Below, piece after piece: positions 2,686 through 59,441 of a stretch of 64,000 nt of DNA. The notes beneath the pieces are model-generated. The model did no database searches. It was given only the letters and a program-made list of their open reading frames with translations, and was not told where the DNA came from. This DNA comes from Tubulanus polymorphus (Eukaryota > Nemertea > Palaeonemertea > Tubulaniformes > Tubulanidae). How positions within the stretch are numbered: the stretch's first letter is position 1; each line of letters begins with the position of its first letter. The position numbers and the translations under genes were made by a program. Location: positions 5,527,001-5,591,000 of the forward strand of contig NC_134029.1 in NCBI RefSeq assembly GCF_964204645.1. The letters run 5' to 3'.

Positions 2686-5600
2686 ATTGGCTGCTCAGCT
2701 CTGAAAGTAGAAAAAAAACAGATCATCATATCTCAGTACGGTGAAACTCAAAGCGTACGTGTATTTACCGGTTATTTTGCTAGGTAGTCACTAATTTCTA
2801 GTTCATAAAATCATGATAGCTGTCCAGTTACCATGGTAATCAAACTATACAAACCCTAGGGAAACACCAGCGAATGGAGTACCCCACGGCACTATTTGCG
2901 CATACGGTGGTGTGATGAGGAATTAAATGTTTTGCACTACAATGTTGTTTCATCGAGAGATTGTGGTTGCGGTTTGTTTGGCTCCGGTGGAGAGGAGCAC
3001 GCCCCACCGGAAATTTGGCGTGAAGATCAGATCCGTATCGATCAACCCCCGACTAGATTGTTTCCTTACTTGGTTCGACGGTGATGCTCTAACTCACGAT
3101 TACCATTTTCAATGAAACACTTATGTTACTCGACGAATAACGGCCAGGAATATTATGATAAAGAATTACTACAGTTAAGTTCGGTTTCAGTAATATCAAT
3201 AGCTTCATTTTTAGAATAAGTAAAATCTTGAATTCACGAACTGAAAAGACCCAGATCATTACTCCGATTGGCCAGGATAGGGTATTTGATTCAGTAGACG
3301 GTCGACTTGACGTTGTCTGAGATTCAGGCCAAAAATATACTCCGCCATCAAAATAAAGTTATTGTTAAATTTTCTATTGGTAAATTTCAAACATCGAATG
3401 TCAACCCCCGTGTCCTTAGTCTCCTGATGCTGATATCAAAACCGTGGCACACGATCCGAACGATCAACATCTTAATAATCGGCGCGTATGTCCAACATTG
3501 CTTGGAAGCTTCAAACCAAAGAAATTACGGCAAAACTCTAATTGAAGTTTCGAATTTCAGGTGGATTGAAATGTAAGCATACCGCACAGGTGGTTAATGT
3601 GGCTCTTGATAGTAGTGCTCTATAAGAGAAACCTTTTTCTCTTGTACACAGTTAGCAAATAGATGGAAGTATGGAAAAAAATCACGAACGCTTTGCTTTT
3701 GCTTACAGCACGCAACAGATATTTCAAGGTAGAGCAATAAACAAAAATATTATCATATCCTCGCGTCTTTTCTCGAATCGCTACCGATCGAGGAGTCGAC
3801 AGCGGCGAAGTGCCGATGGCATTTTCCATTTATACTCCTATTTCTGTATCAGCCGTTCTCGTGATATTGACTTCAGAAACTAGCGCTCTACACCACAACA
3901 CAACAGACGATTCGACCAATCCTACATTTGATTTCAAACGAAAACATGCGCGTACTTTCTGATATCGGGAAAAAACCAGGTGCGCTAGAAAGAGCTGGGG
4001 AATTGAATACAAACAAAACTTCACTAGCTTCAACGCGGTGTAGCCTGACAGATTTATCTCATTTGAAAAACTATCACTAGAAAATCATAGCAAATTGAAG
4101 CGACATATTAGTTATGGACACAAATGCATCGAATGAAAATATGCAATCATTGAAAGAATACAAAAATATGCAAGAATGAAAAATATAACCGAACGATTAG
4201 CACTATTTCGAGAGGTTCTTTACAACTATTTGCTTGATTCGGGCCATAACCCTAGAAGAAAATGTGAAACCCAAACACCACTAATTTTCGTGCTATGCAC
4301 ATAAAGATTGGTAGACATTGAATCTGATAGTTTTCTTTAATTACGGCCCGAATCAGCGACCATACTCAGTTGCCACGATCCAAAAATGGTTTAAAATGGT
4401 AATAATGTGTTTGATGAAGATGTCCGTGTGTATTGTCACCTTGATCAGACCTGGTCAACTACATGAGACAAGACCTTATCAATGATTCATTCCTGGACTG
4501 ATCATCATTCGCCAGTGTTGTGGCTTATGTTTATTCATGGATATTTCCATCTCATATAGGGGAAAAAGAAACATCAGATGGACCCTAAGTGGCAATCAGT
4601 TGGTTGATGCGAATAACTTTTGATATTTCGGATGAGACAATGGAGATGAAAGCGTCCTCGGCGTTCTTTACTTAATACGACCATCGGTTTTTTAGTATTG
4701 GATTATCTATTTTCATTTTTCATACATAATCTTCGCGGTTGTTTGTCACTGCCTCAAATCTTCCGTCGGCTTATCATCGAAGTTGTTCCTATTCAGATGT
4801 CAAAGAGATTTTGATGATCTTGTATTTCCGACTAATTCAAGCCCAATCTGTCATATAATCTGTCATTTTTTGTTCGATGTCTATATACGAGCTGATGTCT
4901 TTGAAAAATAAATCCTGCTTCGTCCTGGCTGATTACAACATGCTATACTGCATTTGCCGACGATTCGACAACGTCGTAGAGCGAAGGGACTTGATGGCAG
5001 CTGACATTTCGCTGATATGAAAATCTCGTAAATTTTCTTATCGTATTAAACGTGTCAGTGAGTTAAATGACAATCAAACACGAGACGTGGATCTAATTAA
5101 TTGAAACCGTACGTAAATTCTGCGTTTCCTAAAAAGCATATGTTATTCTTATTCAGCTTCACGTTTACGCGTTTATGCGCTAATTTGCCATAAACGCATT
5201 CAGCATTCACTCGCAAGTTCCTGACTCTGAATACTCTTGATTCTAATTCAAGCCATCGCGTAGTCCTATGCCTGGAATAGTTAGGCTACGTTTCAACTCT
5301 GCACCGTCTAAGAATAAGTTCTTATTCAAATATTTAAAATCTTTATACAAATCCATCAATAACTTACAACTTTGTAATCGTGTCCAATTTGTCAGATAAT
5401 TCAGATCCTTTCGTTTTTCTTTTTTTAGTCACTATAAAGCCTGCGCTACAGTTATTGGGTAATGGAGTCGAGATGAATGAATATGGACTAATTTTGAATA
5501 TTACTGCGTAACTGGGATCAGCACATTTCTAGAAATGACATTTTCCGCAGCGGATTTGTTTATACAGTTTCCTTGGTGGTATTTCAAGGCATAAAAGGGC

Positions 5601-13722: not shown

Positions 13723-18191
<4,469 letters not shown>

Positions 18192-23873: not shown

Positions 23874-24068
<195 letters not shown>

Positions 24069-37642: not shown

Positions 37643-37692
37643 AGTAGGATCCCGACTAGACCGTGGAGAACGATAAACATTGGATGACAAAC

Positions 37693-37896
37693 CTGATCGG
37701 TTGTGTACTGGAAGTTCGTCTGTCTAATGGTCGCGGCAGACGGATCCATGTAAATTCCAGATTCCAAAGAAACGTCGTTACGAGCGCATCTTCGGACAGT
37801 TGAATATATTCCAAAGTAATCGGCGAAATCATCGGAACTAGCGGAATAACTAGTTCCCGACGGTTGTGTTTTATCCGAGACAGCAGCGGCTCCAGC
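37693..37896 (-). CDS. GalNAc-T exon 5: catalytic core
   Basis: 204 bp after acceptor TATTTGCAG and before donor AG|GTTTGT. The reading is LEPLLSRIKHNRRELVIPL, VPMISPITLEYIQLSEDAL, VTTFLWNLEFTWIRLPRPLD. The opening WLEPLL and the LxWxLxFxWxxxP pattern match the family. The usual 'PVIDVID' stretch is PLVPMIS here, so two acidic residues are lost. A longer Met-initiated frame over this exon is in a different, wrong frame. Confidence 0.92.
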
Positions 37897-39445
37897 CTGC
37901 AAATAGTTTTCCATATAATTTCTGAGAAACAAGACGTAGTTTGTGGTTTTATCTTTTACCGCAAAATAGGTATTGCGAAATAAAAGTGATTGTATATTGG
38001 TAATCTGCAGAACATAACTATGTTCTATTTTGATTCGAATCATTTACTTGCTGCAAGAGTGGCAACCGAGTAATATTGCATTAAATGCACGAGGCGCCGG
38101 CAATAAGAATCGCTACGGGCTCTAAACGCCGTGTATTGAAATTAAACAAGATTTCACGATGCTGTAAACTTGATTACGTTTAATTCGAAGCAGTTATCCG
38201 CAGACAGCCAGGTATCACGAAACTGACTTCCTGCATTTAAATGAAGAGCGATTTTGGAGCGATAGGATTGTGCCAACGCAGCGTCGTCGCCGTCGACGTA
38301 TGAGATTTGAATTTTTCATCGAGTCTGCGCCTTGTCAAACTCGTCATCGAATATGCATGGCCTGCTGGCCCGCTTCGAAAGAAACGAGGGATTAGAATGA
38401 ATAGACACGAGATTTGATCCATGTATGAATGACAGTACTGGAGCATGTTTATTCGCCAGCATTGCTGTTCGTCTGTTCACATCACGCGGGACTACATTAT
38501 CTTTCTTATCGGACCGTTTCAACGATTTCTCGTCAAAGAACATATTATTTGCAATGGCTCAACGGCCATAGAATTGCGTGTTCATGGAGGCAGAAAATAT
38601 ACCAGATCGGCTTGCTACGCATTTCCCTCGTAGAACAACGATGCCTAAATCATAGATTACACGCGATTCGAGAAATCGCGCATTTTCTTCCTCAGAGTGA
38701 AGTGTCACATTTTAGAGGAATTATTTATCACGCTGCCTTCTTTTTCTATATTCTAATTTATTAGATAAAAGATGAAATAAAAACCGTAACTGACAGCCAC
38801 CATTTTAAAATGAAATTTGCTGTAAATGTTGCATACGCAGTTTAGCATATGGTGGATTACGCCACGTCAAAGTATAAGCTGACATAATCAATCCCTTGAA
38901 CACGAACAAAAATATTGCTGCAGGGCTGAGTGCGCAACTTTCGTTTCTCGATCGTAATTACCGATGTCGTTTGATAGTAACCTAATCAATGTCTTTCAAC
39001 TACAGCAGTAGGTATAGAGAGGGTTTCACATGAACCTAATCCTAGAATATTTCACCAAGTCCCCAAGGTGATGATCAATGCGACAGCCATCAACGCAAGA
39101 TGACAGACTAGACAGATGATGTATCTCAAACATCGACCAAAATGCATCTTCCATGTCGATGGTAGGCAATATAGTAAAAGGCAAAGGATGATGTTATGGC
39201 GGCAAAGGGGGCAATCTGTAATAAGATCGATGATATAGGTATAGCCTCCAATCAAACTCCATTACTGATCACATGACCTTTAGGAGCGTCCGAACGTCCA
39301 TTCTGTCGAGGTCGCTTGTTTTGGCCTACCAGAGATTTCGGATGGTCGCGCTCTTTTATGGCTTTCTATATCTCGTAAATTCCCAGTTTCAAGGTCGGTT
39401 GTACACCATACCAAGACTTTGTGAGATCACCATATGACTGTTTAC

Positions 39446-40422
39446 TATGGTGGCTGATAAGGGCCATAGCGTAAAATTCCTGGTATGTAAATGAGGGCGC
39501 CAGAACGCCAGAACGCAAAAACGAAAAAAAACGTCCAATTTTCTCAAAAAGTTCGTTTTGGCGCGCCAAAACAAAGAAAATTCCGTTTTGGCGCCCCCGC
39601 CAAAACGAACTTTCATTTTGGCGCCCCCGCCAAAACGAACTTTTGTTTTGGCGCCCCCGCCAAAACAACGAAAAACGTCCAATTTTCTCTAAAAGTTCGT
39701 TTTGGCGCACCAAAACAAAGAAAATTCCGTTAGAGAAAATTCAATTAGAGAAAATTGGACGTTTTTCGTTGTTTTGGCGGGGGCGCCAAAACGAAAGTTC
39801 GTTTTGGCGGGGGCGCCAAAATGAAAGTTCGTTTTGGCGGGGGCGCCAAAACGGAATTTTCTTTGTTTTGGCGCGCCAAAACGAACTTTTTGAGAAAATT
39901 GGACGTTTTTCGTTGTTTTGGCGGGGGCGCCAAAACGAAAGTTCGTTTTGGCGGGGGCGCCAAAATGAAAGTTCGTTTTGGCGGGGGCGCCAAAACGGAA
40001 TTTTCTTTGTTTTGGCGCGCCAAAACGAACTTTTAGAGAAAATTGGACGTTTTTCGTTGTTTTGGCGGGGGCGCCAAAACGAAAGTTCGTTTTGGCGGGG
40101 GCGCCAAAATGAAAGTTCGTTTTGGCGGGGGCGCCAAAACGGAATTTTCTTTGTTTTGGCGCGCCAAAACGAACTTTTAGAGAAAATTGGACGTTTTTCG
40201 TTGTTTTGGCGGGGGCGCCAAAACGAAAGTTCGTTTTGGCGGGGGCGCCAAATGAAAGTTCGTTTTGGCGGGGGCGCCAAAACGGAATATTCGTTGTTTT
40301 GGCGCGCCAAAACGAACTTTTAGAGAAAATTGGACGTTTTTTTTCGTTTTGGCGTTCTGGCGTTCTGGCGCCCTCATTTACATACCAGGAATTTTACGCT
40401 ATGGCCCTTATCAGCCACCATA
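39446..40422. mobile_element. Foldback (TIR) element made of palindromic units
   Basis: A 977-bp element with long terminal inverted repeats. The outer part starts TATGGTGGCTGATAAGGGCC and mirrors at the other end for about 100 bp with one or so mismatches. It is flanked by the direct repeat GTTTAC (39440-39445 and 40423-40428), a 6-bp target-site duplication. Inside are five units of about 144 bp: one inverted on the left, four direct on the right. Each holds GGCGCGCC and GGCGCC palindromes. There is no transposase, so it is non-autonomous. It lies in GalNAc-T intron 4, starting 11 bases after the splice donor. The open frames on both strands (up to 226 codons) are products of the repeat. 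Confidence 0.9.
39757..40331. repeat. Four tandem 144-bp units inside the foldback element
   Basis: The anchor GGACGTTTTTCG recurs at 39757, 39901, 40045, 40189 and 40332, giving steps of 144, 144, 144 and 143 bp. Each unit holds three copies of a shorter block with TTTTGGCGGGGGCGCC and one perfect palindrome TTTTGGCGCGCCAAAA. Units are nearly identical; the last one has lost a base or two (for example CCAAATG for CCAAAATG). Confidence 0.92.
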
Positions 40423-40432
40423 GTTTACTCAC

Positions 40433-40610
40433 CATCCATCAGTGACTTCAACGTGCGCGTCCATCACCACAATCACCTCGCCCGAAGCCATCCTCGCACC
40501 AGCATTTCGCCCTTTCATTAGACCATGTCGTTTTCGTAGGCGAAGGATCTTTACGAAACCTTCCGGCCACGTCGAAGCGATGTATTCCTCCAGAGGTAAC
40601 CCCAGATCAG
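40433..40610 (-). CDS. GalNAc-T exon 4: DxH metal-binding motif
   Basis: 178 bp between acceptor CCTGAACAG and donor TG|GTGAGT. It reads LPLEEYIASTWPEGFVKILR, LRKRHGLMKGRNAGARMA, SGEVIVVMDAHVEVTDGW. DAH is the Mn2+-binding DxH of GT-A folds. The segment before it is GLMKGRNAGA where most relatives have GLIRARLLGA, a noticeable divergence next to the active site. The donor overlaps the target-site duplication of the foldback element. Confidence 0.95.
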
Positions 40611-41379
40611 CTGTTCAGGAAAAAGCATTGATATTCTTTAATGATATTCTTTAATAATCTCGATTAAGATTATGGTGAATACACATTGGTTAGTTGCTTG
40701 CATATTCATCTAAAATTAAGCCCAGTAATATTTTAGAGAGATGCATGGCCTGAGTCAATACATTTTATCATCAATGGACGTATATCAAATTTGCCAATTT
40801 TATCGACTTTTCGTGAATTCTGGTCGATTTTCATCGGAAATCAGTTTTAGCTTGCCATTTGTCTTGCCGCGTGTGCACGTGACAACGTACGAGGCCAGAC
40901 GAATATAAGGAACCGTTCGATGTATTTATTAATGGAGGTTTATTCGTGATAAATCACATCCTATGAATGTTTTATGCGAACACGATATACGTCGTCGTTA
41001 CCGCAGACTGACTGACAAGTCCGCCACCGATGAATTTTTACGCGGCCGTATCTACTCCGTCAGTGCATATATACACAGGCTGTTGACGAAGCTAATTCTA
41101 TGAACTTGAATTCGAACAAGTTACATACATTGGTATGAAAATACACTTGGAATTGCTTTTTCTGATCAGTTGAAAGTGAACTTGTGGAATCGATGTGCAT
41201 TATCATGAATGATGGTGGAAATAAAGATCGTATCTATGTGATGACCATGGAAATAAAACCTTCCCAACAGTTTACAAATTTCTAAATCTCTGCGTGAACT
41301 TAAATATAAATTCAAAAATACAACAATCTCTAACTATATGATTTAGCTAATTATTCGCCATTTATTACATTATTGATTT

Positions 41380-43735: not shown

Positions 43736-46407
<2,672 letters not shown>

Positions 46408-53895: not shown

Positions 53896-59441
<5,546 letters not shown>

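Follow-up and report, generated by a model that had tools for sequence, protein, structure and literature searches.

A GalNAc-T intron of Tubulanus polymorphus carries a 977-bp element close beside its 5' splice site, within the 64,000-nt stretch of DNA analysed here (the window). Probably this element is a recently active transposon of the IS3EU/GingerRoot kind that was mobilised in trans, and whose insertion kept the splice donor and had at most a modest effect on it. The element is foldback in shape only, not in family. The features discussed below are as follows, in coordinates of the window.

37659..37896, minus strand: next GalNAc-T exon, with its 5' edge placed, starting (W)LEPLLSRIKHNRREL
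39440..39445, no strand assigned: target-site duplication GTTTAC, copy far from the donor
39446..40422, no strand assigned: non-autonomous IS3EU-like element, 977 bp, termini TATGG..CCATA
39446..39731, plus strand: left inverted arm, comprising an outer end of about 70 bp and about 1.5 units of a 144-bp repeat
39745..40354, minus strand: right-arm tandem array, 4.2 copies of the 144-bp unit, 98% matches
40353..40422, minus strand: right outer end, 70 bp identical to the left end
40423..40428, no strand assigned: target-site duplication GTTTAC, donor-proximal copy, holding donor positions +5 to +10
40427..40432, minus strand: 5' splice site GTGAGT of the GalNAc-T intron
40433..40614, minus strand: GalNAc-T exon ending ...VTDGW, its open frame (40432-40614) reaching to 40614 and its true start probably at about 40610 on sequence grounds

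The insertion lies beside an unchanged splice donor

A preliminary description of this DNA had proposed an inserted element flanked by a 6-bp duplication at the donor, and direct reading found GTTTAC on both sides, at 39440-39445 and 40423-40428. On the gene strand the sequence reads ...GATG up to the exon edge and GTGAGTAAAC beyond it, and then enters the element, with donor position +1 at 40432, +5 at 40428, +6 at 40427 and the element beginning from +11 at 40422. The same description had ended the exon at 40433 and placed the donor GTGAGT at 40432-40427, and this was borne out by alignment of both exons to GalNAc-T structures, in which residue 131 of 1xhb was the last one matched by this exon and residue 131 the first one matched by the next. 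Since the two exons align contiguously at this residue, the junction at W131 of GalNAc-T1 is well placed. With the last base of the acceptor TTTGCAG at 37897, the intron spans 40432-37897 and measures 2536 bp, or 1553 bp once the element and one copy of the duplication are subtracted, the insertion having lengthened it by 983 bp.

The letters of the donor are unchanged, the sequence GTGAGTAAAC being also that of a modelled empty site, in agreement with the earlier view that the donor was left intact. The related proposal, that part of the donor comes from the duplication, is correct in that positions +5 and +6 lie inside the duplication, but says little, because the modelled empty site is identical here. 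When this assembly was searched for an empty site, the query being 400 bp of intron next to the insertion, only the query's own locus matched in full; ten further rows, at 69-80% identity, covered query positions 163-306 at most and ended short of the insertion point. The part they share, at approximately 39202-39345 of the window, belongs to another dispersed repeat that thus has ten further places in the genome.

Structure of the element and its copies in the genome

By direct reading the element runs TATGGTGGCTGATAAGGGCC...GGCCCTTATCAGCCACCATA over 39446-40422. Its first and last 20 bp are perfect inverted repeats, with the 20-bp end found at 39446 and 40403 with zero mismatches against 0.00 expected in shuffled sequence (100 shuffles). 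Matches between the inverted arms include 191 nt at 94% and 218 nt at 97%. The arms are unequal, carrying 2 and 5 copies of a unit marker, so the outer stem can extend only as far as the left arm reaches, about 285 nt. Each 144-bp unit contains three TTTTGGCGGGGGCGCCAAAA and one TTTTGGCGCGCCAAAA, and the 20-bp palindrome, present three times per unit, is TTTTGGCG-GGGG-CGCCAAAA. The very long pre-mRNA hairpin anticipated in the preliminary description was recovered in the predicted RNA fold, in which the inverted arms gave the element -716 kcal/mol, as compared with a mean of -279 (sd 8) for 20 shuffles (z -55). Elsewhere in the window, on the minus strand at 4345-4364, there is a lone end-like word, TATGGTCGCTGATTCGGGCC, with 3 mismatches to the 20-bp end, perhaps a relative of the element family as judged by its letters; a quick look for a partner end found none.

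The genome searched comprised 268 Mb in 77 contigs. The exact 20-bp end occurs 443 times genome-wide (235 + 208), while its reversed control gave no match, which corresponds to roughly 220 insertions. Both ends were in view in 23 of the 28 sources examined first, and an expectation that other copies with 6-bp duplications would exist was confirmed, as 19 of these 23 have a duplication of exactly 6 bp and the other four (L030, L039, L043 and L047) have none. A 7-bp reading of the duplication (GTTTACT, with the element beginning from ATGG) fits the window alone and was rejected, the other 18 duplicated copies giving 6 bp. Some copy lengths (1362, 1506, 1650 and 1794 bp) differ by steps of 144 bp, as expected from the gain or loss of units. 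Over 46 arms, the outer 70 bp deviate from the consensus by a mean of 0.28%, and as the copies measured were picked as best matches, the divergence of the whole family is probably higher. Judged by its sequences, the element family is young. One copy (L026:501-1834) is nested in an older, diverged relative, and its flanks, when joined with one CAAAAC, track the family arm save for substitutions and small gaps, in agreement with the 6-bp rule.

Some sources that share end sequences with the family require separate mention. L049, which resembled a full-length copy in the spacing of its ends, was rejected, as it is without a palindrome array; an inner end at 5391 and a reverse-transcriptase-like ORF seen by eye suggest a different, shorter element. 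L054 and L055 have the same 20-bp end with quite different arrays translating as ...FWFYRPRQFIILVLSPATIHYFGF..., which makes the palindromes a subfamily trait and not a trait of the ends; several of their ends are bordered by AAGGCTTTAG-like sequence.

Large relatives point to an IS3EU-like transposon

Two large relatives of the element were identified, L046 with 9888 bp between its ends and an AATATG duplication, and L048 with 8831 bp and a TAAAAC duplication, the flanks of both having been read. In each, a centre of about 7 kb is bordered on either side by dense palindrome arrays. Four ORF pieces from L048 match Pfam PF24764 (integrase core) in order, over profile positions 5-32, 62-103, 103-141 and 142-173, with E values from 7e-6 to 0.07, one of the four pieces passing the Pfam cut-off, and candidate D, D and E residues were seen by eye. 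A 627-bp integrase-core piece gave 19 match rows genome-wide; in 11 of these the whole piece was matched at 98-100%, an argument for recent activity. On the strand opposite to the integrase-core ORFs lies a 632-aa ORF, at L048:4779-6674 (minus strand), which matches part of the HECT profile with an E value of 8e-9; a corresponding 632-aa ORF is present at L046:5500-7395 (minus strand), the HECT match itself having been obtained for L048. None of the 12 L048 ORFs scanned with Pfam matched a THAP or P-type transposase.

IS3EU elements are described as having TA..TA termini and usually 6-bp target-site duplications (PMC10045372), and the termini given for rust-fungal IS3EU are TAYGG..CCRTA (PMC12730594). 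The TATGG..CCATA ends found here, the predominance of 6-bp duplications, and the candidate integrase-core and HECT ORFs of the 8.8-9.9 kb relatives point to an IS3EU-like element, and the family name Foldback, used in the preliminary description, was set aside in favour of IS3EU/GingerRoot.

Target duplications in FB, TU and P elements are 8-10 bp long, as opposed to the 6 bp found here. A classical Foldback-type element (Drosophila FB or sea urchin TU), or Galileo of the P superfamily, would nevertheless look much alike: tandem-repeat inverted arms, unequal arms and a hairpin shape are all shared by our element, and the arms of Galileo and Foldback in Drosophila are likewise long and internally repetitive, those of Galileo holding many transposase sites according to the account in PMC3688188. 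The likeness is one of shape alone, however, as duplication length, TA..TA ends and the integrase-core matches in L048, which indicate another transposase class, all argue against membership of these groups, which we regard as most improbable.

The IS3EU-like element also differs from IS3EU as so far described, in having inverted arms of tandem palindromic units that reach more than 1 kb (L046) and a HECT-domain ORF in its large relatives. Passenger genes are on record in fungal IS3EU, namely TET/JBP and alpha-kinase (PMC12730594). A literature search for IS3EU together with HECT found no paper with both. IS3EU and foldback were found together only in PMC8268682, where foldback occurs just in the title of a reference. 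The same oyster paper lists two satellites labelled DNA/IS3EU, which gives some precedent for an association of tandem repeats with IS3EU (PMC8268682).

The position beside the donor looks like chance

Target preference was analysed in 100 of 224 pattern-fitting ends, all on C1-C4 and including some elements with both ends. Among these 100 listed ends, C/G occupied position -6 in 65 and position -1 in 61, and A/T occupied -4 in 89 and -3 in 86, a weak symmetric preference for S-WWWW-S, which GTTTAC fits. One could envisage a family that prefers splice donors, the +5 to +10 positions of which often read like S-WWWW-S, and the GTTTAC/GTAAAC target would agree with it. The flanks speak against such a preference, to which we give hardly any credence: GTRAGT occurred on either strand in the 15-bp flanks of none of the 100 listed ends, and GTAAGT lay within 20 nt of an end twice genome-wide (at L062 and L063), against 3.1 expected from an assumed base composition. 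For GTGAGT within 20 nt of an end 1.9 were expected, the copy in the window being one. In a family of this size, one donor-adjacent copy needs no special explanation, and from these counts the position looks like chance.

The IS3EU-like reading suggests the following course of events. Short members, which retain just the ends and the inverted tandem arrays, would depend for their movement on integrase-type transposase supplied in trans by the 8.8-9.9 kb relatives. This transposase would cut its target with a 6-bp stagger at the weakly preferred S-WWWW-S, and gap filling would then yield the 6-bp duplication. With positions +5 to +10 of the GalNAc-T intron as the target, the donor letters would stay, and the hairpin would fold on itself within the intron and most likely be excised with it, making the insertion nearly neutral.

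Predicted effect on splicing is modest

The possibility that the insertion alters splicing, either through a donor that is less open or through use of a donor-like GTATGT in the element by nascent transcripts before the far arm is made, was assessed with folds of matched flanks, in which five exon lengths were combined with two flank lengths to give 10 settings. These are equilibrium folds, which ignore co-transcriptional folding and proteins. The unpaired probability of donor positions +1 to +6 was 0.42 with the element as compared with 0.65 without it, and was lower in all 10 settings; over positions -3 to +8 the mean fell from 0.64 to 0.54. The idea that the donor may be masked thus has some support, in that the donor was less open, but no pairing partner inside the element exceeded 0.1 in the matched folds. 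With the element present, pairing of the donor to exon positions -8 to -14 increased, and pairing of +1 to +6 with the far copy of the duplication was small (up to 0.24). Eight artificial hairpins of about equal length gave 0.41 for +1 to +6 in every case, while the mean over 12 shuffled inserts was 0.27, with nine of the 12 falling below 0.41. As the donor has no partner above 0.1 in the element and artificial hairpins give an equal value, the hairpin keeps to itself in these folds. In these models the closing of the donor most likely stems from separation from its former local partners, and masking of the donor by the element is at most weakly supported.

An earlier run compared models with unequal flanks. 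For 60 and 150 nt of exon, respectively, the mean over -3 to +8 came to 0.64 in both cases at the empty site; a model with 60 nt of intron gave 0.54 and 0.55, one with 300 nt of intron gave 0.53 and 0.47, and one with the whole element gave 0.55 and 0.66. The reading of no change in donor openness drawn from this run was rejected, since the matched run, which takes precedence, shows a moderate drop.

The GTATGT lies in the inverted end, and in short transcripts it was no less open than the true donor (0.59-0.65 vs 0.47-0.55). Its use would place a TGA directly after the W codon, and the coding frame, read on across the donor, gives TGG TGA. Once both arms are present, however, GTATGT is fully paired (0.00), and the coding frame joins well over the two exons. 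Together with the exon pairing and the behaviour of artificial and shuffled inserts, these points make altered splicing unlikely; any such effect would, by these models, be modest and not peculiar to the element found here.

E2F-like palindrome arrays

The splice-site story is near ordinary, being that of an intronic insertion at a position that fits chance with a modest predicted effect on the donor. The element itself is worth recording: its family is young and IS3EU-like, and combines foldback arms and a HECT-domain ORF with E2F-like palindrome arrays. These arrays are more interesting than the splice-site location. The arm palindromes TTTTGGCG fit the E2F consensus TTTSSCGC, a word that published text names alongside E2F, and 26 of the 33 TTTSSCGC words on both strands of the window lie within the 977-bp element. 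Genome-wide, in and out of the family together, the 20-bp palindrome has 934 exact occurrences (472 + 462) and the 16-bp palindrome occurs at 523 places, while the reversed controls of both gave none. At least one dense palindrome array sits inside an intron.

Conservation of the palindromes was examined in 133 units from 22 loci, each with at least 130/144 matches to one window unit. Changes seen singly fell 14 times in a palindrome and 11 times in a spacer (p 0.84), while all eight variants found in four or more loci lay in spacers. The split between shared and private variants gave a Fisher p of 0.005, or 0.022 with linked variants merged, a comparison that was chosen post hoc and in which units inside one element are related; there is thus only a hint in these sequences that damaged palindromes spread less. 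A first count that gave a 9- to 27-fold conservation of the palindromes was discarded, as it reflected overlapping loci (L045 and L050) and shared ancestral variants, and in the cleaned set the singly seen changes showed no difference.

It could be envisaged that the arms are working E2F/DP sites and that copies with damaged palindromes stop multiplying, with expression or transposition tied to host S phase, or with the palindromes serving as docking sites for a transposase or host factor, hundreds of them having been spread through the genome. We hold this to be rather unlikely. A precedent of a kind exists in Brassicaceae, where transposons are reported to have amplified E2F-type motifs (PMC12595863, citing Henaff et al. 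2014). The likeness lies in the multiplication of such motifs by transposons; the plant case, as set out in PMC12595863, involves mainly hAT, PIF/Harbinger and MULE MITEs together with Helitrons, in contrast to the dense arrays of putative E2F-like palindromes in an IS3EU-like element of an animal host described here. If the palindromes are bound, the family would be a natural case in which to ask whether, outside plants, a cell-cycle regulator can be titrated or borrowed by a transposon.

Apart from the element, the 64-kb window contains five long (AT)n runs, at 13741-13864, 15662-15921, 23878-24059, 46282-46403 and 59267-59434.
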